Source of the DNA: an uncultured Sphingomonadales bacterium
Lineage (GTDB): Bacteria > Pseudomonadota > Alphaproteobacteria > Sphingomonadales > Sphingomonadaceae
Direction: 5' to 3'
Length of the DNA: 9,141 nucleotides
Assembly: GCA_903893935.1 (NCBI GenBank)
Contig: CAITOD010000303.1
Coordinates: 1-9,141, forward strand
Below are positions 1 to 9,141 of this stretch, in pieces. Numbering within the stretch: position 1 is the stretch's first letter; every line of letters begins with the position of its first letter. The notes below the pieces were generated by a model that worked only from the letters and a program-made list of their open reading frames with translations, was not told the DNA's origin and ran no database searches. The position numbers and the translations under genes were made by a program.

Positions 1-623
1 ACATTGGCCTGGGTATCGCCCCGCCGCCGCAGAGCGTGGATGCGCAGCGCATCGTCCTTCTGCTTGCCGGTCTGCTTGTCGAACCGCACCAGCCGCGCGC
101 GGTTGCCCGCCGCATATTCGGACAGCCCGCCCACCGCGATCATCGCATCGAGCAGTGTCATGTTGGCGCGATACGACAGCGAGGCAGGCTTTTCGGTTGC
201 CCCGACCACGCGCACCTGCTGGCTGTAAGTGCCGGAAAACTTGTTGACGATCACCGAAACGATCGGTTCCTGGATATATTGCGAAAGCTGCAGCTTGATG
301 TCTTCGGCCAGCATCGACGGGGTCTTGCCTACCGCCGGCATGTCGGTGATCAGCGGCGTGGTGATCCGCCCGTCGGGCCGCACCTGGACTTGCGCGCCAA
401 GTTCGGGGTTGCGCCACACGAAAATGGTCAGCTGGTCGAGCGGACCGATGATGTAATCCTCGCCCGGGCCTTCTTGCAGCGACACGAACGACGCCGGGGG
501 CAATTGCGCGCCGCCGCCGTTGGCACAGCCCGCGAGTGCAAGCGCCGCCACCCCGAGCACAGCGAATGCCGAACGCCGATTGACCGAGCGGTCGCAAAAG
601 GCAGGCTGGGCTTCGTCGTGCAT
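1..623 (-). CDS. Polysaccharide export outer-membrane lipoprotein, XrtA/PEP-CTERM type (partial, 3' end off window)
   Basis: This is the outer-membrane/periplasmic export protein of an exopolysaccharide system (Wza/EpsE-like), expected to form the secretion channel. The 207 visible residues begin at an ATG at 623 and run off the left edge in frame. A lipoprotein signal is visible: a basic n-region with RR at 16-17, a hydrophobic stretch at 19-31 and the lipobox LAGC with Cys33. A polysaccharide export domain follows from about 55 (DYIIGPLDQLTIFVWRNPEL, then VRPDGRITTPLI and a conserved GKT). The start of an SLBB-type domain is seen from about 135 (VRVVGATEKP, then the block MTLLDAMIAVGGLSEYAAGN and RARLVRF). 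This wording closely matches the export proteins found in exosortase A loci (the TIGR03027 type, from memory). An AAGGA ribosome site lies 6 bases before the ATG. Roughly the last 20 or more residues should be missing. The call is firm at family level; the XrtA assignment is supported by the neighbours. Confidence 0.92.
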   Translation of the reverse strand, partial: MHDEAQPAFCDRSVNRRSAFAVLGVAALALAGCANGGGAQLPPASFVSLQEGPGEDYIIGPLDQLTIFVWRNPELGAQVQVRPDGRITTPLITDMPAVGKTPSMLAEDIKLQLSQYIQEPIVSVIVNKFSGTYSQQVRVVGATEKPASLSYRANMTLLDAMIAVGGLSEYAAGNRARLVRFDKQTGKQKDDALRIHALRRRGDTQAN

Positions 624-802
624 GAACCGTCCTTTATCAAGCCTCGTCGCACCCGCATGCCGTAACGAGCAGGCCGGGTGTCCCGCATGTCTCCCAAAGG
701 GACAGGCAGGGCGCAATTTCAGGCAATGCTATGACCAAAAAGGGTGAAGATACCGTTAGTGCTTTGACGCGCCGCCCAAAATGTCCCGTTTGGCGACGTC
801 CG
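624..802 (-). promoter_or_regulatory. 179-base gap upstream of the export gene; probable promoter/leader region, no clear boxes
   Basis: This is the only sizeable non-coding stretch in the EPS part of the window. It lies between the end of the decarboxylase and the start of the export protein, all on the minus strand. It is more AT-rich than the flanking genes, especially at about 716-760, as expected for a promoter of the downstream EPS operon. I could not find a convincing -35/-10 pair. A short inverted repeat, TGTCCC (679-684) and GGGACA (699-704), lies in the leader, with no T-run after it. The promoter role is inferred from position only. Confidence 0.3.
630..634 (-). promoter_or_regulatory. 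Ribosome binding site of the export protein gene
   Basis: On the minus strand AAGGA precedes the ATG at 623 by 6 bases (spacer CGGTTC). It is the clearest Shine-Dalgarno in the left half and fixes the start of the export protein, placing the lipobox Cys at residue 33. Confidence 0.6.
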
Positions 803-2065
803 TTACGCAACAATCGCTGAACCCGAGCTTACCAGCATCTCGCGCGCGGGCCCGTGCCCCAGGAACGCCGCCGGGCTGGCACTGGCGCCATAAGCCCCGG
901 CGCAGAACAGCGCGACCAGATCACCCGGCTGTGCATGCGGCAGCGCCAGCGCGTCACCCAACCGGTCGAGCGGCGTGCACAGGCAGCCGACCACGTGCGC
1001 GACATCGTCGGCAGGCGCATCGAACCGCGTCGCGATCGCGCAAGGATAATTGCGCCGGATCACTGCGCCGAAATTGCCGCTGGCGGCGAGCTGGTGGTGC
1101 AGGCCGCCATCGACCACCAGAAACGTCTGGCCCCGGCTTTGTTTGCGCTCGATCACTTCGGCCAGATAGACGCCGGCTTCGCCGACCAGCCAGCGCCCGA
1201 GTTCGAGCACGAAGCGCGTTTGCGCCAGCGCCGGCGCGCGCCGATCGAGCAGATCACCAAGCCTGTCCCCGACTTGCGCCAGATCGAGCGCGCGCTGGCC
1301 GTGAAAATAGGGAATGCCGAAACCGCCGCCGAGATTGCACGCGGGCACCGTGACCCCGGCCGTCTCGGCCAGCTGCACCACCAGCGCGAGCGTTGCCGCC
1401 TGGCTGGCCACAATCGCTTCTCCATCGAGCGACTGGCTGCCCGCATAGACATGAAACCCGCACCACTGCGCACCGCTCGCGACCAGCCGCCGCGCCAGCG
1501 CGGGCACGAGTTCGGCATCGACCCCGAATGGCCGCGCGCCCCCGCCCATGCGCATGCCCGCGCCGGCGAGTTCGAAATCGGGATTGATGCGGATGGCGAG
1601 GCGCGGCGCGATCCCCAGCCGATCGCCGGCTGCGAGCGCGCGATCGGCTTCGTGCGCGGATTCGAGATTGAGCGTGACCCCCGCGCAGATAGCAGCAGCA
1701 AGATCGGCGTCGCGCTTGCCCGGCCCGGCAAAGCCGATGCGCCCGCCCGCAACGCCTGCCGCCTGCACCGCCGCCAGTTCGCCACCCGATGCGACATCGA
1801 ACCCGTCGACGTCGTGCGCCATGAACGCCAGCAGCGGCGCAAACGGATTGGCCTTGACCGCATAATGCAGGGCGAGCGCTTGCGGCATCGCTGCGCGCCA
1901 AGCCGCGATGCGCGCCGCGATCAGTGCCGCATCATAGACGAACAGCGGTGCGCCACCGGCGCGCGCCACCCAGTCGCGCGCGCGCACCCCGCCGATCGCC
2001 AGTTCGCCGTCGATCGCGGCAAAGCCTGGCGGTATCGGGCCCATCGGTTTGCTGGCGCCGGTCAT
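803..2065 (-). CDS. PLP-dependent decarboxylase, exosortase A system-associated (DAP/Orn decarboxylase fold III)
   Basis: This 420-residue protein is of the alanine-racemase-fold (group IV) amino acid decarboxylase type, related to diaminopimelate decarboxylase LysA. The PLP lysine is K71 in YAVKAN (68-73). Other family marks are ASGGEL (92-97), HVYAGS (205-210), the phosphate-binding GGGFG (246-250), ELGRWLVGEAGVY (288-300, the EPGR region), VVDGG (317-321), GCLCTPLD (360-367) with the probable catalytic Cys363, and AGAYG (389-393) with Tyr392 near the cofactor. The ATG at 2065 overlaps the ligase stop as ATGA, and no ribosome site precedes it, so translational coupling is likely. In exosortase A loci this family (TIGR03099 type) is regularly paired with the ligase found here. 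It is probably not a housekeeping LysA: the setting is EPS biosynthesis, and the substrate may be an ACP-bound amino acid as for butirosin BtrK. The substrate cannot be read from the sequence. Confidence 0.9.
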   Translation of the reverse strand: MTGASKPMGPIPPGFAAIDGELAIGGVRARDWVARAGGAPLFVYDAALIAARIAAWRAAMPQALALHYAVKANPFAPLLAFMAHDVDGFDVASGGELAAVQAAGVAGGRIGFAGPGKRDADLAAAICAGVTLNLESAHEADRALAAGDRLGIAPRLAIRINPDFELAGAGMRMGGGARPFGVDAELVPALARRLVASGAQWCGFHVYAGSQSLDGEAIVASQAATLALVVQLAETAGVTVPACNLGGGFGIPYFHGQRALDLAQVGDRLGDLLDRRAPALAQTRFVLELGRWLVGEAGVYLAEVIERKQSRGQTFLVVDGGLHHQLAASGNFGAVIRRNYPCAIATRFDAPADDVAHVVGCLCTPLDRLGDALALPHAQPGDLVALFCAGAYGASASPAAFLGHGPAREMLVSSGSAIVA

Positions 2066-3564
2066 GCCCCGGGCTTATCGGGCAAATCCGATAATTCATG
2101 GTAAAGGCGCGCGCGGTCGAGCTTGCCATTGGCATTGAGCGGCATTGTCGCGCGGGCATGGATCGCGCGCGGCACCATGAACCCGGGCAATTCGCGCGCC
2201 AGCACCGCACCCATCGCCGCGTGGTCGAACGTGTCGGGACTGACCACCAGATGGATCGCCTGGCCCAGCGCGGGATCGGGCAGCCCGAACGCCGCCGCCT
2301 CGGCGACCAGCCCGCTCGCCAGCACCACGTCCTCGATTTCCTGCGGGCTGACGCGCTGGCCGGCGGTCTTGATCATCGCATCGCGCCGCCCGACGAAATG
2401 AAGCAGACCCGCGGCATCGCGGCGCACGCGATCGCCCGACCACACCGCCACACCGCCCCCGCGCGAGAACGCGGGTGCTGCGCGAAACCGTTCGGCGGTG
2501 CGCACCGCATCGCGCCAATAGCCTTGTGCAACCAGCGGCCCGGCGTGGACCAGTTCGCCCTCGTCGCCGGGCCCGGCCGCAGTGCCATCGTCGCGCACCA
2601 CCATGATTTCGGCAAACGGGATCGCGTCGCCGATCGCGGTCGGATGTGCATCGATCAGCGCGGGATCGAGATAAGTCGAACGAAACGCCTCGGTCAGGCC
2701 ATACATCGCGTAAAGATCGGCCTGCGGCGCGCAATTGCGCAAGCGCTGCACCAGCAAAGCATCGAGCGCGCCGCCGCTGTTGGTCATGCGGCGCAGCGCC
2801 GGCAAATCAGGCCAGTCGAGCGTCACCAGCTGCCGCCACAGCGGGGGCACCCCGGCCAGCGTGGTAATGTGATGCGCGGCGAGCGCGCGCAGCACGTCGC
2901 GCGGCAGCAGGTAATCGTGCGGCACCACGCAGGCGCCCGCCGCCCAAGCCGACAGCAGCTGGTTCTGCCCATAGTCGAACGCCAGCGGCAGCACGGCCAG
3001 CACGCGGTCATCCGGCTTGAGCCGCAGAAAATGCGCCACGCTGATCGCGCCGAGCCAGAGATTGGCGTGGCTGAGCATCACCCCTTTGGCGCGCCCGGTC
3101 GATCCGCTGGTATAAAGCAGCGCAGCCAGCGTATCGACCGGCGCCGACGAGGGCGGCATGGCGCGCGCGTCATCGAGCGCAGCGAGCACCTGGCTATCGG
3201 TGACGGCGCCGGGCACTGTTGCCAGCATGGCCAGTCGTTCGGCATTGGCAATCAGCAGTGCGGCGCCGCTGTCGGCAAGGATGTGTTCGACTTGCGCGCG
3301 CTTGAGCACGGGGTTGACCGGCACATGCACCAGCCCGGCGCGCGCCGTGGCCAGGGGCAGCAGACAGGCCAGTTCGCCTTTGGGCAGCCAGCTGGCGACG
3401 CGTTCGCCGGGCGCGTTGCGGCTTGCCAACCACGCCGCAAGCTGGCCTATACGCCGATTTAACCCGGCATAGTCCATGACCCGGGTGCCCAGCACCAGCG
3501 CCGGCGCATCGCTTTGTCCCCGCAACGGCAGGTGATCAAGCGGGCAAGGCGCCGGATCGGGCAT
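2062..3564 (-). CDS. AMP-forming acyl-CoA/amino acid ligase, exosortase A-associated
   Basis: This ANL-superfamily adenylating enzyme is about 500 residues from the ATG at 3564. It carries the P-loop LLYTSGSTGRAKGV (149-162), an A4-like PLAFDYG (F196, D197), YAMYGLTEA (285-293), the ATP-ribose-binding SGD (376-378), the hinge GRRDAMIKTAGQRVSPQEIE (392-411) and the C-terminal PLNANGKLDR with catalytic Lys481. All core motifs are intact. It adenylates a carboxylate and passes it to a thiol, either CoA or the pantetheine arm of the nearby ACP. The FD at the A4 position resembles NRPS and DltA adenylation domains, where Asp holds the substrate amine, so an amino acid substrate is plausible. It matches the exosortase A ligase family (TIGR03098 type), which is always found beside the decarboxylase. 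A GTG at 3585 would give 7 more residues; neither start has a clear ribosome site. Confidence 0.9.
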   Translation of the reverse strand: MPDPAPCPLDHLPLRGQSDAPALVLGTRVMDYAGLNRRIGQLAAWLASRNAPGERVASWLPKGELACLLPLATARAGLVHVPVNPVLKRAQVEHILADSGAALLIANAERLAMLATVPGAVTDSQVLAALDDARAMPPSSAPVDTLAALLYTSGSTGRAKGVMLSHANLWLGAISVAHFLRLKPDDRVLAVLPLAFDYGQNQLLSAWAAGACVVPHDYLLPRDVLRALAAHHITTLAGVPPLWRQLVTLDWPDLPALRRMTNSGGALDALLVQRLRNCAPQADLYAMYGLTEAFRSTYLDPALIDAHPTAIGDAIPFAEIMVVRDDGTAAGPGDEGELVHAGPLVAQGYWRDAVRTAERFRAAPAFSRGGGVAVWSGDRVRRDAAGLLHFVGRRDAMIKTAGQRVSPQEIEDVVLASGLVAEAAAFGLPDPALGQAIHLVVSPDTFDHAAMGAVLARELPGFMVPRAIHARATMPLNANGKLDRARLYHELSDLPDKPGA

Positions 3565-3589
3565 GGGAACGGCAAGCGCGGTCACGATG
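3563..3589. promoter_or_regulatory. Head-to-head start region of ligase and GNAT genes with almost no intergenic DNA
   Basis: The divergent ligase and acyltransferase have candidate starts packed in 27 bases. On the minus strand these are ATG at 3564 and GTG at 3585; on the plus strand, ATG at 3563 and ATG at 3587. With the preferred starts (3564 minus, 3587 plus) only 22 bases separate the genes. Any promoter must therefore lie inside the opposite gene. No Shine-Dalgarno or promoter box is obvious on either strand. Confidence 0.55.
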
Positions 3590-4597
3590 CACGTCTATCA
3601 CGCAGACCTTGACGAAGCGCAAGCCGACCCGGCGCTGGCCGCGCTGTTCACGCCCGGGCCGGGTGTGAGCCCGTTCGACCGGCTCGACTGGCTGCGCTTG
3701 ATGGCGGCGGAATGTCTCGCGCCGGCGCGGTGCTTCGTGGCCGTGGCGCGCGACGGCGACGCCATCGCGGCGTTGCCGTTGTGCCAGACGCGCCACGGGC
3801 TCGGTGCGCTCGCCAACTGGTACAGCTTCTTAGCCCGGCCGCGCTATGCCGATGCCCTCCATGCGCCATTGCTGCGCGCGATCATGCGCAGTCTGGCAGG
3901 ATTCGGCGCGCTCGATTTCGCGCCCCTGCCAGCCGCAGAGGCGGCGCTGTTGCGCGGCGCGGCACGCGAAGCGGGCTGGATCGCTCTCGCCAGCCCCGCC
4001 GATCGCAACCACGTGCTTCACACCGGCGCGCGCGATTTCGCCGCGTGGTGGGCGACGCGCCCAGGCCCTTTGCGCGAAACCGTGCGGCGCAAGGCGCGCA
4101 AAATGCGCGTACGTGTGGCGCGCGCGTTCGATCCCGCCGACTGGGACACGTATGAGGCGATCTATGCGCAAAGCTGGAAACCAGCCGAAGGTTCGCCCGC
4201 TTTCCTGCGCCGGTTTGCCCAGGCCGAAAGTGCTGCCGGAAGGTTGCGGCTGGGGCTGGCCACTGTCGATGACGCGCCGGTTGCCGCGCAGTTCTGGACT
4301 GTCGAACAGGGCATCGCCTATATTCACAAGCTGGCGCACATTCCCGCCGCCGCCGCGCATTCGCCGGGCACCGTGCTCAGCCATGCAATGTTCGCCATGG
4401 CGTTCGACGAAGACCGGGTGACCATGATCGATTTCGGCACCGGCGACGACGGGTACAAGCGCGACTGGATGGAACACGTGCGGCTGCGCTACCGGCTCGA
4501 AGCGTTCCATCCGCGCGCGCCGCGCCAATGGCCGGGCGCGGTGCGGCTGCTTGCCAAAGCCGCGCTCGGCCTTGCCCGCCCTGATCGGGGTGGATAA
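3587..4597 (+). CDS. FemAB/BioF2-like GNAT-fold acyltransferase, EPS-associated
   Basis: This 336-residue cytoplasmic protein has no signal peptide or membrane segment. Its C-terminal half has the look of the Acetyltransf_6 (BioF2-like, FemAB-related) family: PVAAQFW (231-237) as the central strand, YIHKLAH (245-251), SPGTVLSHAM (259-268) as the acyl-donor-binding turn and helix, and IDFGTGDDGYKRDWM (281-295), where GDxxYKRxW is typical. A basic patch, RRKARKMRVRV (167-177), lies mid-protein. Such proteins sit in many EPS and exosortase loci and are thought to transfer an acyl or aminoacyl group onto sugars or lipids. It comes first in the plus-strand run, 9 bases ahead of the ACP, so an ACP-bound donor is a reasonable guess. 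I chose the ATG at 3587 over 3563 because the first strand (HVYHADL) begins there. Whether it belongs to the PEP-CTERM FemAB family proper is uncertain. Confidence 0.75.
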   Translation: MHVYHADLDEAQADPALAALFTPGPGVSPFDRLDWLRLMAAECLAPARCFVAVARDGDAIAALPLCQTRHGLGALANWYSFLARPRYADALHAPLLRAIMRSLAGFGALDFAPLPAAEAALLRGAAREAGWIALASPADRNHVLHTGARDFAAWWATRPGPLRETVRRKARKMRVRVARAFDPADWDTYEAIYAQSWKPAEGSPAFLRRFAQAESAAGRLRLGLATVDDAPVAAQFWTVEQGIAYIHKLAHIPAAAAHSPGTVLSHAMFAMAFDEDRVTMIDFGTGDDGYKRDWMEHVRLRYRLEAFHPRAPRQWPGAVRLLAKAALGLARPDRGG

Positions 4598-4599
4598 GG
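4596..4599 (+). promoter_or_regulatory. Ribosome binding site of the ACP gene
   Basis: AAGG overlaps the stop codon of the acyltransferase gene and lies 7 bases before the ACP ATG at 4607, supporting that start and co-translation in one mRNA. Confidence 0.5.
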
Positions 4600-4606
4600 C
4601 AGCGCA

Positions 4607-4864
4607 ATGGACGATGTTGATGCAGGCTTGCGCAAAGTGCTGGGGGACGTGCTGGGGCTGAACGCCGGGCGGCTCGCCGCGCTGACCCCCGACACGCCTT
4701 TGTTGGGCGCCCTGCCCGAACTCGATTCGATGGCGATCGCGACGCTGTTTGCCGCGTTGGAAGACCACTTTGCGCTGCTGTTCGACGACGCCGATGTGAC
4801 TGGCGAAACGCTTGCGACATTCGGCAGCCTGCTCGCGCTGGTCCGCGCAAAACGCGGATCGTGA
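4607..4864 (+). CDS. Acyl carrier protein, exosortase A-associated
   Basis: An 85-residue acidic helical protein with the phosphopantetheine site ELDSMAI, Ser41 in DSM (40-42). The usual ACP layout is present: helix 1 from residue 3 to 16, a long loop with TPDTPLLG (27-34), helix 2 starting at the Ser, and a final helix near 72-82. DSM instead of DSL is typical of stand-alone carrier proteins in secondary pathways rather than of fatty acid AcpP. It lies between the acyltransferase and hydrolase 2, and its TGA overlaps the next start as GTGA. The likely role is to carry the substrate activated by the divergent ligase and present it to the decarboxylase, GNAT or hydrolases. A separate phosphopantetheinyl transferase, not in this window, would be needed. 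The identity as a carrier protein is firm; its cargo is unknown. Confidence 0.9.
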   Translation: MDDVDAGLRKVLGDVLGLNAGRLAALTPDTPLLGALPELDSMAIATLFAALEDHFALLFDDADVTGETLATFGSLLALVRAKRGS

Positions 4865-5520
4865 TCATAACCTGGCCATGCCCGGGAGGCGATGAATTCG
4901 CCGCCGTGATCGATCGCGACCGGCGGTTCCGGCTGCTGATCGTGCCCCCGCTGTTCGAGGAAATGAACCGCACGCGCCGCATGCTGCGCAGCACAATGCG
5001 CGCGCTCGATCAACACGGCATCGACAGCTTTCTGCCCGATTTGCCCGGCACCAACGAAAGCCAGGCGTGCTTTGCCAGCCAGAGCCTGCATGCCTGGCGC
5101 ACCGCGATGGCACGCGCCGCACGGCATTTCGCCGCAACGCATGTGCTGGCGCTGCGCGGCGGCGCGCTGGTGTTTCCCAATGCGCTGCCCGGCTGGGTGG
5201 TCGAACCGGTTTCGGGCGCGCAAGTGCTGCGCCAGATGCTGCGCGCGGCGGTGATCGCTGCGCGCGAAGCCGGCGACTATGCCGACAGCGCCCAACTGCT
5301 CGAGATCGGGCGCAGCGAAGGGATCACGCTGGCCGGTTACGACTGCGGCCCCGCGCTGATCGCCGGGCTCGACAGCGCGCGCCCGCTCGACGAAGGCCAG
5401 CGCGAAATCCGCCAGTCGGAGCTTGGCGGCGCGGCGCTGTGGCAACGCGCCGAACCGGGCGACGACCCCGCGCAATCGGCGCGGCTGGCAGCGATCATTG
5501 CCGCCGGGATCGCCGCATGA
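4861..5520 (+). CDS. Hydrolase 2, exosortase A system-associated (alpha/beta-hydrolase fold, apparently without catalytic triad)
   Basis: A 219-residue protein starting at a GTG that overlaps the ACP stop (GTGA). The first in-frame ATG, at residue 35, would cut into the fold, so GTG is preferred. Family marks are LLIVPPLFEEMNRTRRM (25-41), typical of the exosortase-associated hydrolase 2 group (TIGR03101 type), then LPDLPGTNES (58-67), and GITLAGYDCGPALIAGLD (154-171). The nucleophile elbow HVLALRGGAL (94-103) has Arg99 where a Ser or Cys is expected, and no histidine occurs after residue 94. A conventional Ser-Asp-His triad is therefore absent. It may be a non-catalytic partner of hydrolase 1, with which it is translationally coupled, or it may use unusual chemistry. 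As I recall the family, Arg at this site is shared by relatives, so this is unlikely to be recent decay. No frameshift is seen. Confidence 0.8.
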   Translation: MIITWPCPGGDEFAAVIDRDRRFRLLIVPPLFEEMNRTRRMLRSTMRALDQHGIDSFLPDLPGTNESQACFASQSLHAWRTAMARAARHFAATHVLALRGGALVFPNALPGWVVEPVSGAQVLRQMLRAAVIAAREAGDYADSAQLLEIGRSEGITLAGYDCGPALIAGLDSARPLDEGQREIRQSELGGAALWQRAEPGDDPAQSARLAAIIAAGIAA

Positions 5521-6323
5521 CGCGGCGCATGCTCGTGTTTCCGTGCGGCGGCGCGAAGCTTGTCGGCTCGCTCGATTGCGGCAGCGCGCATGGCCAGACC
5601 GGGTTGCTGATCGTGTCGGGCGGCAGCGAAATCCGCGCCGGTGCCTTTGCCGGTCAGGCGCAACTGGCCGCGCGGCTGGCCGATGTGGCGGGCGTGCCGG
5701 TGTTCCGCTTCGACCGACGCGGGATCGGCGACAGCGAGGGCGACAACCCCGGCTGGCGCGGATCGCGCGATGATATCGCCGCAGCGCTTGGCACCTTTCG
5801 CGCCGCACTGCCCGGCATGCGACGCGTGGTCGGCTATGGCCTGTGCGATGCCGCCAGCGCGCTGATGCTGCATGCCGCCACGTTGGGCCCGCATGGTTTT
5901 GACGGGCTGGTGCTGGCCAATCCGTGGACAATCGACCGCGACGACGCGGCGCCCGATCACAGCCCCGCCGCGCTGCGCCGCCGCTATCTCGCGCGACTGT
6001 CCGACCCCCGCGCGCTGTGGCGCCTGCTGAGCGGGCAAGTCAATCTGGCGCGGCTGGTGCGCGGGCTGGGCCAGGCCACGCAGCGCGGCGCGACGCCTTC
6101 GCCGCTGGTCGATATGCTGCAAGCGGGCCTTGCCCGGTTTCACGGCCCGGCGACGCTGCTGGTCTCGGCCGAGGATCGCGTCGGCGCGCGGTTTCGCGAA
6201 CTCTGGCCCGACGACCCGCGCCTGCGCATCCACGAAGGCCGCAGCCACAGCCTGACCGACGATACCGCCAGCCGCGACTGGCTGTTCGAGCAACTGGTCG
6301 AAGCAACGGCTTCACGCCATTGA
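5517..6323 (+). CDS. Hydrolase 1, exosortase A system-associated (alpha/beta hydrolase with Cys nucleophile)
   Basis: A 268-residue alpha/beta-hydrolase starting at the ATG at 5517 that overlaps the hydrolase 2 stop as ATGA. The open frame extends 450 bases further upstream, but that part only shadows hydrolase 2. Motifs are the oxyanion-loop region LLIVSGGSEIRAGAF (30-44), FRFDRRGIGDSEGDN (63-77), the nucleophile elbow GYGLCDAASA (106-115) with Cys110 in the place of Ser, an acid at Asp220 (SAEDR) and a His at His244 (RSHSL). A Cys110-Asp220-His244 triad is thus intact. It matches the exosortase-associated hydrolase 1 group (TIGR03100 type). Cys nucleophiles are used in this fold by PHA synthases, dienelactone hydrolase and some thioesterases, so a thioesterase or acyl-transfer role on the ACP-bound intermediate is plausible. 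It is the last gene of the run. Confidence 0.85.
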   Translation: MTRRMLVFPCGGAKLVGSLDCGSAHGQTGLLIVSGGSEIRAGAFAGQAQLAARLADVAGVPVFRFDRRGIGDSEGDNPGWRGSRDDIAAALGTFRAALPGMRRVVGYGLCDAASALMLHAATLGPHGFDGLVLANPWTIDRDDAAPDHSPAALRRRYLARLSDPRALWRLLSGQVNLARLVRGLGQATQRGATPSPLVDMLQAGLARFHGPATLLVSAEDRVGARFRELWPDDPRLRIHEGRSHSLTDDTASRDWLFEQLVEATASRH

Positions 6324-6405: not shown

Positions 6406-7371
6406 TTATTCCGCCGCAAGCCGCGCGGCTGCGAATTCGCGTTCGGCCAGAAAACGTTCTGCATCGAGCGCGGCCATGCAGCCGGTGCCGGCTGCGGTGA
6501 CCGCCTGGCGATAGGTGTGGTCCATCACATCGCCGCACGCAAACACGCCGGGGATGGCGGTTTTGGGCGTGCCCGGTGCGACCACGATATAGCCGCCCGC
6601 ATCGAGTTCGAGCTTGCCTTTGAACAGCTCGGTTGCGGGCGCATGGCCGATCGCCACAAACGCGCCATCGGTCGCCACTTCGCTGGGCGCGCCGGTCAGC
6701 GTGTCGATCAGCGCCACCCCGGTCAGGCCCTTTTCGCCGCCGATGAAATGGTCGACCTGCTTGTTCCACAGCACGCTGATCTTCGGATTGGCAAACAGAC
6801 GGTCCTGCAGGATCTTTTCCGACCGCAGCGAGTCGCGGCGATGGATCAGCACGACTTCGGAGGCATGGTTGGTAATATAGAGCGCTTCTTCGACCGCGGT
6901 GTTGCCGCCGCCGATCACCACGACTTTTTTGCCGCGATAGAAAAACCCGTCGCACGTCGCGCACGCCGAAACGCCTTTGCCGCCCAGTTCCGCTTCGCCC
7001 GGCACGCCCAGCCAGCGCGCCTGCGCGCCGGTGGCGATCACCAGGCAATCGCCGTCATAGACATCGCCGCTGTCGCCGTGCGCGCGGAACGGCGGTCCAT
7101 CGAGGCTGACCTCGGTGATCGTGTCCCACAGCATCCGCGTGCCGACATGTTCGGCCTGCGCCTGCATTTCCTGCATCAGCCAGGGGCCCTGGATCACGTC
7201 GCGAAACCCGGGATAGTTTTCGACATCGGTGGTGATCGTCAGCTGGCCACCCGGCTGCAGCCCCTGCACCACGATCGGTTCCATCCCTGCGCGCGCGCCA
7301 TAAATCGCGGCGCTTAGCCCGGCCGGTCCCGAACCGATGATCAACATGCGCGTCTTGTGTACCGTGGCCAT
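6406..7371 (-). CDS. trxB: Thioredoxin-disulfide reductase (NADPH)
   Basis: This low-Mr thioredoxin reductase transfers electrons from NADPH through FAD and a redox disulfide to thioredoxin in the cytoplasm. From the first of two tandem ATGs (7374) it is 322 residues; numbering here uses that start. It shows the FAD site GSGPAG (14-19), PGGQLTITTDVENYPG (41-56), the redox centre CATC (Cys138, Cys141), the NADPH site GGGNTA (155-160) with HRR (178-180), ATG (114-116), and the final FAD motif GVFACGDVMD (276-285) with YRQAVTAAGTGCMAA. Length and motifs are normal for the family. GGAG (7381-7378) lies 3 bases before the first ATG but 6 before the second, so 7371 is the better start. It is 45-48 bases downstream of the phosphatase gene on the same strand and may be co-transcribed with it. 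Confidence 0.97.
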   Translation of the reverse strand: MATVHKTRMLIIGSGPAGLSAAIYGARAGMEPIVVQGLQPGGQLTITTDVENYPGFRDVIQGPWLMQEMQAQAEHVGTRMLWDTITEVSLDGPPFRAHGDSGDVYDGDCLVIATGAQARWLGVPGEAELGGKGVSACATCDGFFYRGKKVVVIGGGNTAVEEALYITNHASEVVLIHRRDSLRSEKILQDRLFANPKISVLWNKQVDHFIGGEKGLTGVALIDTLTGAPSEVATDGAFVAIGHAPATELFKGKLELDAGGYIVVAPGTPKTAIPGVFACGDVMDHTYRQAVTAAGTGCMAALDAERFLAEREFAAARLAAE

Positions 7372-7377
7372 CATATT

Positions 7378-7381
7378 CTCC
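7378..7381 (-). promoter_or_regulatory. Ribosome binding site of trxB, deciding between tandem ATGs
   Basis: Minus-strand GGAG is followed by AAT and then ATGATG. The 6-base spacing to the second ATG (7371) is closer to the usual optimum than the 3 bases to the first (7374). Confidence 0.55.
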
Positions 7382-7419
7382 GTTTACGCCAGGCGAGATA
7401 AGCACCCGGGCAGCGGAGT

Positions 7420-8196
7420 TCAATCGATCAGGCGCGCTTCCATCGCGGCAATCTGTGCTGGTCCGACCCCGAGCACGGTTTCGGCATAAGCCTCGATACT
7501 GCCGTGGCGTTCGCGGATGGCGGCAAATGCGGTGTCGAGATAGATCGCCTCGACCCCCAGCACCACGCGCATCGTCGCATCGTCGAGACCCATGTCGGCG
7601 AGGCTCTGGCTCTGCGATACAATCCGTGCCTCGATATTGCCCGCGGTGTTGGTCAGCAGATAATCCTCGACAATGTCGTCGTGATGCACCCCCAGCAAGT
7701 GCTGCACCAGCGCGACGCCCAGCCCGGTGCGGTCTTTGCCGGCGAGGCAATGCAGCAGGCTTGCGCCATCGCGCTCGGCCAGCGCCGCGCCATAAAGGCG
7801 AAAAGTGCCCACCAGCACATCGCGAAACGCCATGCCCCGGTAGAGCCGGATCATCCGGTCGCGCGCATCCTGCGGCGTGCGGATGGCATCGGCCGCTTCG
7901 GCATGCGCGGCCTGGCCTTGCAGGCTGGCGGTTTCGCCGGGGTGAAACAGCACATCGCCGGCGAAATCCTCGTGCCGCAAACACGGAAATGCTGCGCGTT
8001 CGCTGTCGCCGCGCAAGTCGATCACCGTCGCAATGCCAAGATCGCGCACCCGCGCGAGATCGGCGGGCGTCGCGCCGGCATGCTGGCCCGACCGCCACAG
8101 CCGCCCGCGCACCAGCCGGCCGCCGCGCGCGGGGTAGCCGCCATAGTCGCGAAAATTGTGAATGCCTTCGAAAGGCAGGACCCGGTCGTCGCTCAT
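7420..8196 (-). CDS. Tyrosine-protein phosphatase, MptpB-like (Y_phosphatase3 family)
   Basis: A 258-residue cytoplasmic phosphatase with the P-loop HCLAGKDRTG (149-158), catalytic Cys150 and Arg156. The CxxGKDR form, with Lys154 and Asp155, is the mark of the MptpB/LipA-type family (PF13350), members of which hydrolyse phosphotyrosine, phosphoserine/threonine or phosphoinositides. The N-terminal GIHNFRDYGGY (11-21) and LWRSGQH (33-39), followed by TVIDLR (57-62), are the other conserved blocks of this family. A helical lid region fills about 90-125. No signal peptide is visible. It lies 42 bases after the M20 gene and 45-48 bases before trxB on the same strand, suggesting one transcript. The true substrate is unknown; EPS systems use tyrosine phosphorylation, but those phosphatases are of other families, so a link to the EPS locus is speculative. 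Confidence 0.88.
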   Translation of the reverse strand: MSDDRVLPFEGIHNFRDYGGYPARGGRLVRGRLWRSGQHAGATPADLARVRDLGIATVIDLRGDSERAAFPCLRHEDFAGDVLFHPGETASLQGQAAHAEAADAIRTPQDARDRMIRLYRGMAFRDVLVGTFRLYGAALAERDGASLLHCLAGKDRTGLGVALVQHLLGVHHDDIVEDYLLTNTAGNIEARIVSQSQSLADMGLDDATMRVVLGVEAIYLDTAFAAIRERHGSIEAYAETVLGVGPAQIAAMEARLID

Positions 8197-8238
8197 TGTT
8201 CCCGCCTGACGCCTGTTCGTGACGACCGTGTTAAACGA

Positions 8239-9141
8239 TCACTGAAAACCGTGCGCAAGAAACCGTTCGGCGCATCCGGCGAGCATCGCGGTGCCGAGCG
8301 GCAGCGCGGCTTCATCGACCATCATGCGCGGCGAATGGATGCTCGGGCACGTGCGCGGATCGACATCGGGCGCGGCAACGCCCAGAAAGAACATCGCGCC
8401 GGGCACTTTTTCAAGCACATAGGCAAAGTCTTCGGCGCCCATGATCGGGTGCGACAGACGGTGGAACGCCACCGGGGCGCCGATCGCCTGCGCCACGTGT
8501 TCGCCCAGATCGACTGCGCGCGGGTCGCACAATGTCACCGGAAACCCCTCAAAGATATGAATTTCGGCCAAAAGCCCGTGGGCTGCGGCAATGCCTTTGG
8601 CAAGCTGCGCCAATTGCTCGTGCACCGCCGCCCGGTTGCGCGGCGAAAGCGTGCGCAGCGTGCCTTTCATGCGCACGCGATCGGGGATCACATTGTGCGT
8701 GGTGCCCGCATGGAGTTCCGAGACAGTCACCACCACCGGGTCGGCGACCGGAAAGCGGCGCGTGACCATCGTCTGGATCGCGCCGACGATTTCGCACGCG
8801 ACCGGCATCGGATCGAGCGTCTGGTGCGGCATCGAGGCATGCCCGCCGCGCCCTTCGACCACGATCTCGAACCGATCGGCCGAAGCGAGCAGCGCGCCCG
8901 CCCGCCCCGCCACCACACCATGCGTGCTGTCGGGCATCACGTGGAGCGCAAAAGCCGCGTCGGGCAGCGGGTCGATAAGGCCATCGTCGATCATGTACCG
9001 CGCGCCATGCCAGCCTTCTTCGCCCGGCTGGAACATGAACTGGACTTCGCCCGCGAAGGTATCGCGACGCGCGCACAGCACATGCGCCGCGCCCGCCAGC
9101 ATCGCGGCATGCGTGTCGTGCCCGCACGAATGCATCGCGCC
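8239..9141 (-). CDS. M20 family amidohydrolase/metallopeptidase (partial, N-terminus off window)
   Basis: The C-terminal 300 residues of an M20D-type (hippurate hydrolase/IAA-amino acid hydrolase-like) zinc or manganese amidohydrolase that cleaves N-acyl amino acids or similar amides. The frame is open to the right edge, with GA preceding MHSCGHDTHAAM; the Cys and His of this motif are metal ligands. Further ligands are the Glu pair in QPGEEGWHGARYM, His in ALHVMP, and the late His in SIHSPRMMVDE. The dimerisation lid domain is seen as VEGRGGHASMPHQTLDP and TVSELHAGTTHNVIPD, and the C-terminal SHPIMGAEDFAYVLEKVPG is typical. About 100 N-terminal residues should lie outside the window, so the Met 6 bases inside the edge is not the start. 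It is the first visible gene of the run leading to the phosphatase and trxB. No role in the EPS pathway is evident. Confidence 0.92.
   Translation of the reverse strand, partial: GAMHSCGHDTHAAMLAGAAHVLCARRDTFAGEVQFMFQPGEEGWHGARYMIDDGLIDPLPDAAFALHVMPDSTHGVVAGRAGALLASADRFEIVVEGRGGHASMPHQTLDPMPVACEIVGAIQTMVTRRFPVADPVVVTVSELHAGTTHNVIPDRVRMKGTLRTLSPRNRAAVHEQLAQLAKGIAAAHGLLAEIHIFEGFPVTLCDPRAVDLGEHVAQAIGAPVAFHRLSHPIMGAEDFAYVLEKVPGAMFFLGVAAPDVDPRTCPSIHSPRMMVDEAALPLGTAMLAGCAERFLAHGFQ

Follow-up and report, generated by a model that had tools for sequence, protein, structure and literature searches.

The stretch analysed here (the window) is the whole of contig CAITOD010000303.1 (C303), 9,141 nucleotides from the fragmented, 82% complete assembly GCA_903893935.1 of an uncultured Sphingomonadales bacterium; its nearest relatives, judged by the decarboxylase that it encodes, are Sphingomonadales records. 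Positions 803 to 6323 carry six genes, among them an AMP-forming ligase, a stand-alone acyl carrier protein (ACP) and a pyridoxal phosphate (PLP)-dependent decarboxylase (together, the trio), beside an export gene of the type associated with exosortase A (XrtA). We consider it somewhat probable that the six genes charge the ACP with side-chain-linked aspartate, decarboxylate this to a β-alanyl thioester and pass the resulting group to an amino group of an exopolysaccharide or its precursor. The genes are as follows:

3..647 (as scanned), minus strand: export protein, XrtA/PEP-CTERM exopolysaccharide type (TIGR03027; 188 bits, cut-off 180)
803..2065, minus strand: fold III PLP decarboxylase, BtrK-type (TIGR03099; 549 bits, cut-off 478)
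2062..3585, minus strand: AMP-forming ligase, VinN-like (TIGR03098; 619 bits, cut-off 592)
3563..4597, plus strand: 'GNAT' protein with a predicted FemX-type double-GNAT fold (PF13480, the sole Pfam match at E ≤ 0.001)
4607..4864, plus strand: stand-alone ACP (PF00550; 25.8 bits)
4861..5520, plus strand: hydrolase 2-like pseudo-hydrolase (TIGR03101; 61.5 bits, below the cut-off of 202.75)
5517..6323, plus strand: hydrolase 1, an alpha/beta-hydrolase (TIGR03100; 209 bits, cut-off 168.45)

Family-model matches place each of the six genes, and the XrtA-type export gene beside them, where the initial annotation had put them. Two of its labels needed correction: for the 'GNAT' the predicted fold is the double-GNAT one of FemX type, and hydrolase 2 is a divergent relative without the serine nucleophile. 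The ATGA overlap that it had noted between ligase and decarboxylase is real, and this overlap, the GTGA overlap of ACP and hydrolase 2 and the ATGA overlap of the two hydrolases make the genes tightly packed. The export gene is truncated at the contig end (its likely ATG start is at 623). The predicted starts of the divergent ligase (GTG at 3585) and FemX-fold gene (ATG at 3563) overlap across 3563-3585, thus there is no room for a promoter between them; alternative later starts, at 3564 for the ligase and 3587 for the FemX-fold gene, would leave a gap of 22 bases.

Two sets of relatives were compared with the window: a wide set of loci from a sample of 349 genomes of the phylum, with 20 kb fetched per locus, and a close set comprising the best 80 of 575 decarboxylase relatives.

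The ligase has Pfam matches to PF00501 and PF13193 only. A 13-sequence profile of the ligase family, searched against the PDB, identified VinN as the best single-domain chain (303 bits; the next scored 277), and higher totals were found only in two-domain chains, LgrA (domains at 217 and 268) and 8xjz. With a profile of the substrate-pocket region alone, the VinN entries were the only matches at E ≤ 1e-4 (E 7e-13). A single 69-residue pocket sequence used as the query gave no match at E ≤ 1e-6, and with a longer pocket region (A8, search at 1e-22) VinN scored 104 bits, second to 8xjz (120 in all; 63 and 55 per domain). As described in passages of PMC7756342, Asp230 of the VinN pocket binds the amino group of β-methylaspartate, and Ser299 and Arg331 bind its α-carboxyl (D246, S315 and R347 in the PDB chain, numbered 16 higher). 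The corresponding residues of the window ligase are Asp204 (2974-2976), Ser270 (2776-2778) and Arg302 (2680-2682). Equivalents of Asp204 and Arg302 are invariant in the 13 aligned ligases; among close relatives the Asp motif and the Arg motif each occur in 75 of 75 sequences, and the serine in 71 of 75, with threonine in the remaining four. The pocket arginine is missing from six other ligases of the fetched loci, which the family profile scores at 425-447 bits. Given this conservation of the VinN pocket residues, activation of an amino diacid via its side-chain carboxylate, as suggested by the initial annotation, is the best prediction for the ligase. The annotation had offered glutamate or aspartate as substrate; the likeness to VinN predicts aspartate or 3-methylaspartate rather than glutamate. 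VinN takes 3-methylaspartate and uses aspartate with low efficiency only, according to passages of PMC11284099 on the vicenistatin route, which runs VinN, VinL and VinO.

In a sequence search of the PDB, the best match to the decarboxylase was BtrK (2j66; 242 bits, E 1e-70, 37% identity over the aligned part), which entry 7ru7 names glutamyl-[BtrI carrier protein] decarboxylase, whereas the best diaminopimelate decarboxylase (DAPDC) scored 145 bits. Stretches around VDGG-HH, R-NYP and LCTP are common to the window enzyme and BtrK and absent from the best DAPDC in these alignments, and Lys71 (1853-1855), within YAVKAN, is invariant in 13 of 13 aligned sequences. Against the lysA model (TIGR01048) the protein scored 212 bits, under the cut-off of 297.9. 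In a tree of 48 sequences, from which two of the seven fetched control loci are absent (L159 and L160, whose longest frame was unmatched), the 25 exosortase-type decarboxylases form one group (100/99) and five DAPDCs another (100/100). BtrK groups with the exosortase-type enzymes and 12 related ones at 92/80, short of the mark for full support. The low lysA score and the separate DAPDC clade led us to reject a role in lysine biosynthesis, and the enzyme is related to BtrK, as had been supposed. Decarboxylases that group near BtrK also occur in L069, L072 and L073, each with three ligase-like frames within 20 kb; these loci are possibly uncharacterised natural-product clusters.

The phosphopantetheine site of the ACP, Ser41 (4727-4729), lies in PELDS, and this serine is present in 31 of 31 wide-set and 74 of 74 close-set sequences. 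Wherever a close-relative locus has the ligase and its upstream sequence reaches 3.4 kb or more, the ACP is there too (71 of 71); the association of ligase and ACP goes beyond chance. For the genomes over the decarboxylase cut-off, the window's own excluded, an ACP was found within the fetched 20 kb in 23 of 24 (it is absent from L052) and the ligase in 23 of 24 (that of L045 is elsewhere in the genome).

The 'GNAT' protein has no FemAB match in Pfam and no NCBIfam match at E ≤ 0.001, and its sequence profile found no convincing relative among solved structures (best E 0.014). Only a fold search gave one. The AlphaFold model (pLDDT 92.7) shows a double-GNAT fold over the whole protein, as in FemABX aminoacyltransferases, and Foldseek with VIA-align ranked FemX, FemA and the streptothrisamine-binding synthases Sbb17 and Sba18 at the top by Z (about 20), followed by MprF-type synthases (Z 16-17) and N-acetyltransferases (Z 15.7 and less). 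All 30 sequences of alignment A6, for which the overlong frame of L135 was dropped from 30 proposed relatives, keep Tyr298-Lys299 (Lys at 4457-4459); at position 295 they have Asp (16), Asn (12) or Ser (2). These positions resemble, at the level of a pattern, Asn325, Phe328 and Lys329 of DhpH-C and Lys305 of FemX from Weissella, residues named in passages of PMC12945691. In L098 (Blastomonas marina) and L142 (Alteraurantiacibacter aquimixticola) the 'GNAT' and the ACP form a single open frame, with different linkers. As the protein is encoded beside, or fused to, an ACP, its donor is likely a carrier-bound group rather than tRNA. The predicted fold makes this protein the favoured aminoacyltransferase, in keeping with the initial annotation, which had named it as a possible transfer enzyme; its gene occurs in 59 of the 71 close-relative loci and is missing from many module genomes, and therefore it could not be the sole transferase. 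The XrtA-associated FemAB protein (TIGR03019) is over its cut-off in 26 of 30 genomes searched and just under it in G007; the window's own genome holds a cut piece, and G107 and G155 yielded none. It is possible that this protein substitutes where the FemX-fold gene is missing.

In hydrolase 1, Cys110 (5844-5846), Asp220 and His244 are invariant in 31 sequences. The cysteine aligns with the serine of a GLSMG esterase in the PDB alignment. All 22 wide-set sequences and 62 of 63 close-set ones have it at the nucleophile elbow. The remaining close relative, L156:6797-7711, has Gly at this position, and L156 also has no FemX-fold gene. Fold searches listed esterases and thioesterases nearly tied and picked out no single function. 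DcsB and GrgF, which are fold neighbours of hydrolase 1, use Cys nucleophiles. The literature matches listed included nothing on its function; from its sequence, we regard the protein as a candidate cysteine acyltransferase or thioesterase. Hydrolase 2 has no Pfam match at E ≤ 0.001, and Arg99 (5155-5157) occupies its nucleophile-elbow position. Every one of the 22 wide-set sequences has arginine there, as does each of the 85 rows of a larger alignment (which counts the window twice and omits a fusion in L060). That fusion (L060:5984-7843) joins hydrolase 2 and hydrolase 1 in one open frame directly after the FemX-fold gene.

Co-occurrence was counted in the phylum sample, with the caveat that the 349 genomes are not phylogenetically independent (15 of the 25 decarboxylase genomes belong to the window's own family). 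The decarboxylase is over its cut-off in 25 genomes, the ligase in 24 and hydrolase 1 in 22, all of them among the 25. In the 25th, G126, a ligase scoring 549 bits lies below the cut-off beside the decarboxylase, and hydrolase 1 scores 166.0 against 168.45. Ligase matches solely below the cut-off at E ≤ 1e-120 were found in 22 genomes, G126 included. XrtA is over its cut-off in 27 genomes, 22 of which are among the 25, and the module is absent from the other five. The decarboxylase genomes without XrtA over the cut-off are the window's own, incomplete one and G107 and G155, and the last two also lack hydrolase 1; hydrolase 1 goes with XrtA. A PEP-CTERM match (E ≤ 1e-4) is absent from 7 of the 22 genomes with both module and XrtA. 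G155, which has a weaker exosortase match (128 bits) and 15 PEP-CTERM matches, probably has another exosortase type; its trio (L048, L099) occurs without hydrolases.

The best that the 82% complete assembly of the window's own genome offered for XrtA was 82 bits, against a cut-off of 208. The genome has seven PEP-CTERM places over the cut-off, and its contig C103 encodes an XrtA-type ATPase (322.9, cut-off 324.5) and ends inside a FemAB-type gene, which most of the other XrtA genomes have no more than about 2 kb from XrtA. Thus, an XrtA locus is likely present and broken by contig ends.

In the usual arrangement, as in L082, ligase, decarboxylase and export genes are followed by XrtA-set genes, with two unmatched genes among them; the chain-length (330, cut-off 279), ATPase (342, cut-off 325) and glycosyltransferase (367, cut-off 317) proteins exceed their cut-offs and the tyrosine kinase (186, cut-off 231) does not. 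In L099 the trio occurs with an XrtA-type ATPase (256, below the cut-off) and a polysaccharide deacetylase (361, over the cut-off). The trio can occur without XrtA, twice in other polysaccharide loci: the distant trio of L043 has nearby glycosyltransferases, a deacetylase, a weak Wzy-type match (below the Pfam cut-off) and an amino-sugar aminotransferase-like gene, and that of L071 a hexapeptide transferase, glycosyltransferases and a Wza-type export gene. L066:7871-13460 encodes, in a row, ligase, decarboxylase, a B12-binding radical SAM protein, ACP and an aminoglycoside-N-acetyltransferase-like protein, and may represent further modification of a carrier-bound group. Transfer of a carrier-bound group to glycan amines by varied acyltransferases would explain L043 and L071, and perhaps L066. 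After hydrolase 1, the window itself continues on the minus strand (6406-9141) with genes for a thioredoxin reductase, a tyrosine phosphatase-like protein and a cut M20 amidohydrolase; the thioredoxin reductase gene is also found in 38 of the 80 fetched relative loci.

The route that we propose would begin with the ligase, which, given its conserved VinN pocket, may convert ATP and L-aspartate (or 3-methylaspartate) to a β-aspartyl adenylate and then to β-aspartyl-S-ACP. The decarboxylase would remove the α-carboxyl to give β-alanyl-S-ACP, as suggested by its match to BtrK and the precedent of VinO. The FemX-fold enzyme, judging by its fold and by the ACP fusions in two genera, would take this group from the ACP, not from tRNA, and form an amide on an amino sugar. 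Judged by active-site residues, the same carrier would also be served by hydrolase 1, a putative cysteine acyltransferase or thioesterase, whose non-catalytic partner would be hydrolase 2. As a candidate for the transfer, hydrolase 1 would rank second to the FemX-fold enzyme, but it would be the likelier transferase where a genome lacks the FemX-fold gene.

Several observations weigh against this route. The FemX-fold gene is absent from 12 of the 71 close-relative loci and, of the 22 genomes that combine module and XrtA, only 10 yielded it (E ≤ 1e-15), fusions of it with the ACP are known from two genomes, and its conserved Lys299 was paired with the FemX lysine by pattern rather than by residue-level structural alignment. 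Neither hydrolase is present in 11 of the 71 loci, which do have ACP, ligase and decarboxylase. The full ligase profile scores 8xjz, a two-domain peptide synthetase, above VinN, its 403 bits being those of both domains together. The long branch of BtrK leaves its exact position in the tree unsure, and its split falls short of full support. Among decarboxylase relatives below the cut-off (L063-L078), an ACP was detected nearby in just 7 of 16. The trio of L113, which has no hydrolases, adjoins only an XrtA-type ATPase (308, below the cut-off), so an XrtA locus is not a necessary setting for the trio. In three further loci the few neighbours scanned are not genes of polysaccharide assembly: they are efflux and iron-sulphur genes in L063, a GGDEF gene in L068, and sulfotransferase and lytic transglycosylase genes in L070.

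Persistence of the trio without export genes in some loci is consistent with a different outcome, in which hydrolase 1, with its full Cys-Asp-His triad and thioesterases and esterases among its fold neighbours, releases a β-amino acid or derivative as a free small molecule that is exported or serves as a signal, the polysaccharide being a mere neighbour. We regard this as unlikely: XrtA is over its cut-off in all 21 hydrolase 1 genomes besides the incomplete own one, a FemX fold, as predicted here, points to an amine as the acceptor, and two trios of other lineages lie in polysaccharide loci. It is similarly unlikely that the module aminoacylates an envelope lipid or protein, such as a lipid carrier or a PEP-CTERM protein, instead of a polysaccharide. 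The route might also run with another building block, from glutamate to a γ-aminobutyrate (GABA) thioester as in butirosin, or from 3-methylaspartate to a 3-aminoisobutyryl thioester. The glutamyl-ACP activity in the name given to BtrK, the best match of the decarboxylase, and the preference of VinN for 3-methylaspartate point this way; the conserved pocket residues are, however, those of VinN and BolO, known or proposed in the source passages to take aspartate or 3-methylaspartate, and general family scans of the window proteins found no glutamate-mutase match, which makes such a substitution distinctly unlikely.

Ordinary metabolism, with a diaminopimelate decarboxylase and a fatty acyl-CoA ligase as neighbours by chance, would account for the lysA match of the decarboxylase and for the matches of the ligase to many acyl-CoA ligase models. 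This we consider highly improbable, since both genes are over the exosortase-family cut-offs and, among the matches listed, under those for lysA and CoA ligases, the DAPDCs form a separate clade (100/100), and ligase and decarboxylase are over their cut-offs together in 24 of 25 genomes. We retain transfer of a carrier-made β-alanyl group to exopolysaccharide as the preferred interpretation.

The initial annotation had taken BtrJ-BtrI-BtrK of butirosin biosynthesis as its precedent, and the window does share with that system a carrier and a BtrK-like decarboxylase. BtrJ is an ATP-grasp enzyme. The window ligase, an AMP-forming PF00501 enzyme, belongs to a different family, and BtrJ was rejected as a model for it; the closer precedent is VinN-VinL-VinO. 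In the source passages on them, VinN-VinL-VinO and BolO-BolC-BolN (bolagladins) combine an adenylating ligase, a stand-alone ACP and a PLP decarboxylase acting on an ACP-bound amino diacid, as predicted here, and the three substrate-binding residues of VinN are kept in the window ligase. Unlike VinN-VinL-VinO, the window has no polyketide or peptide synthase, and its partner genes encode a FemX-fold protein, a Cys hydrolase, a pseudo-hydrolase and a polysaccharide export protein. From the GNAT-fold and FemABX aminoacyl-tRNA-dependent transferases (FemX, Orf11, DhpH-C, Sbb17) the window protein differs in matching PF13480 rather than FemAB and in adjoining an ACP gene, to which relatives are fused. 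Four window proteins exceed the family cut-offs of the XrtA/PEP-CTERM set (TIGR03098-03101, TIGR03027, TIGR03019): the ligase, the decarboxylase, hydrolase 1 and the export protein. Hydrolase 2 is below its own, and the FemX-fold protein has no NCBIfam match at E ≤ 0.001.

The names of TIGR03098-03101 reflect the company of exosortase A only. Titles and abstract openings among the literature matches listed assign no joint chemistry to these families; the main text of the 2006 exosortase paper (PMC1569441) does not use the words decarboxylase, ligase, acyl carrier or hydrolase, and the portions consulted of PMC11340318, PMC11631085, PMC9850573, PMC2907700 and PMC8776678 hold nothing bearing on the chemistry of the module. 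The VinN residue match, the BtrK-type decarboxylase and the predicted FemX-fold partner together provide a concrete, testable route for these families, with predicted mass shifts of +115 for aspartyl and then -44 to β-alanyl at +71. The idea of an amino-acyl decoration pathway is partly supported by these first tests, with VinN-VinL-VinO replacing BtrJ as the precedent and the FemX-fold enzyme as the likely transferase.

Sortase uses glycine bridges built by FemX. By analogy, a β-alanyl free amine on the exopolysaccharide, supplied by a carrier-fed FemX system, could be the acceptor when exosortase A cleaves PEP-CTERM proteins, an idea that we offer as quite speculative and improbable. The 7 genomes with module and XrtA but no PEP-CTERM match, the PEP-CTERM matches of G155 in the absence of XrtA over the cut-off, and the 5 of 27 XrtA genomes that lack the module are a weak test of this idea. 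If the proposed route is correct, a bacterium would be decorating its exopolysaccharide with amino acid groups prepared on a carrier protein, which would probably give the matrix positive charge or a point of attachment. This would be, to our knowledge, the first hint of an ACP-fed FemX-fold transferase, and those who study exosortases would gain a chemical means of approaching the XrtA-linked polymer.

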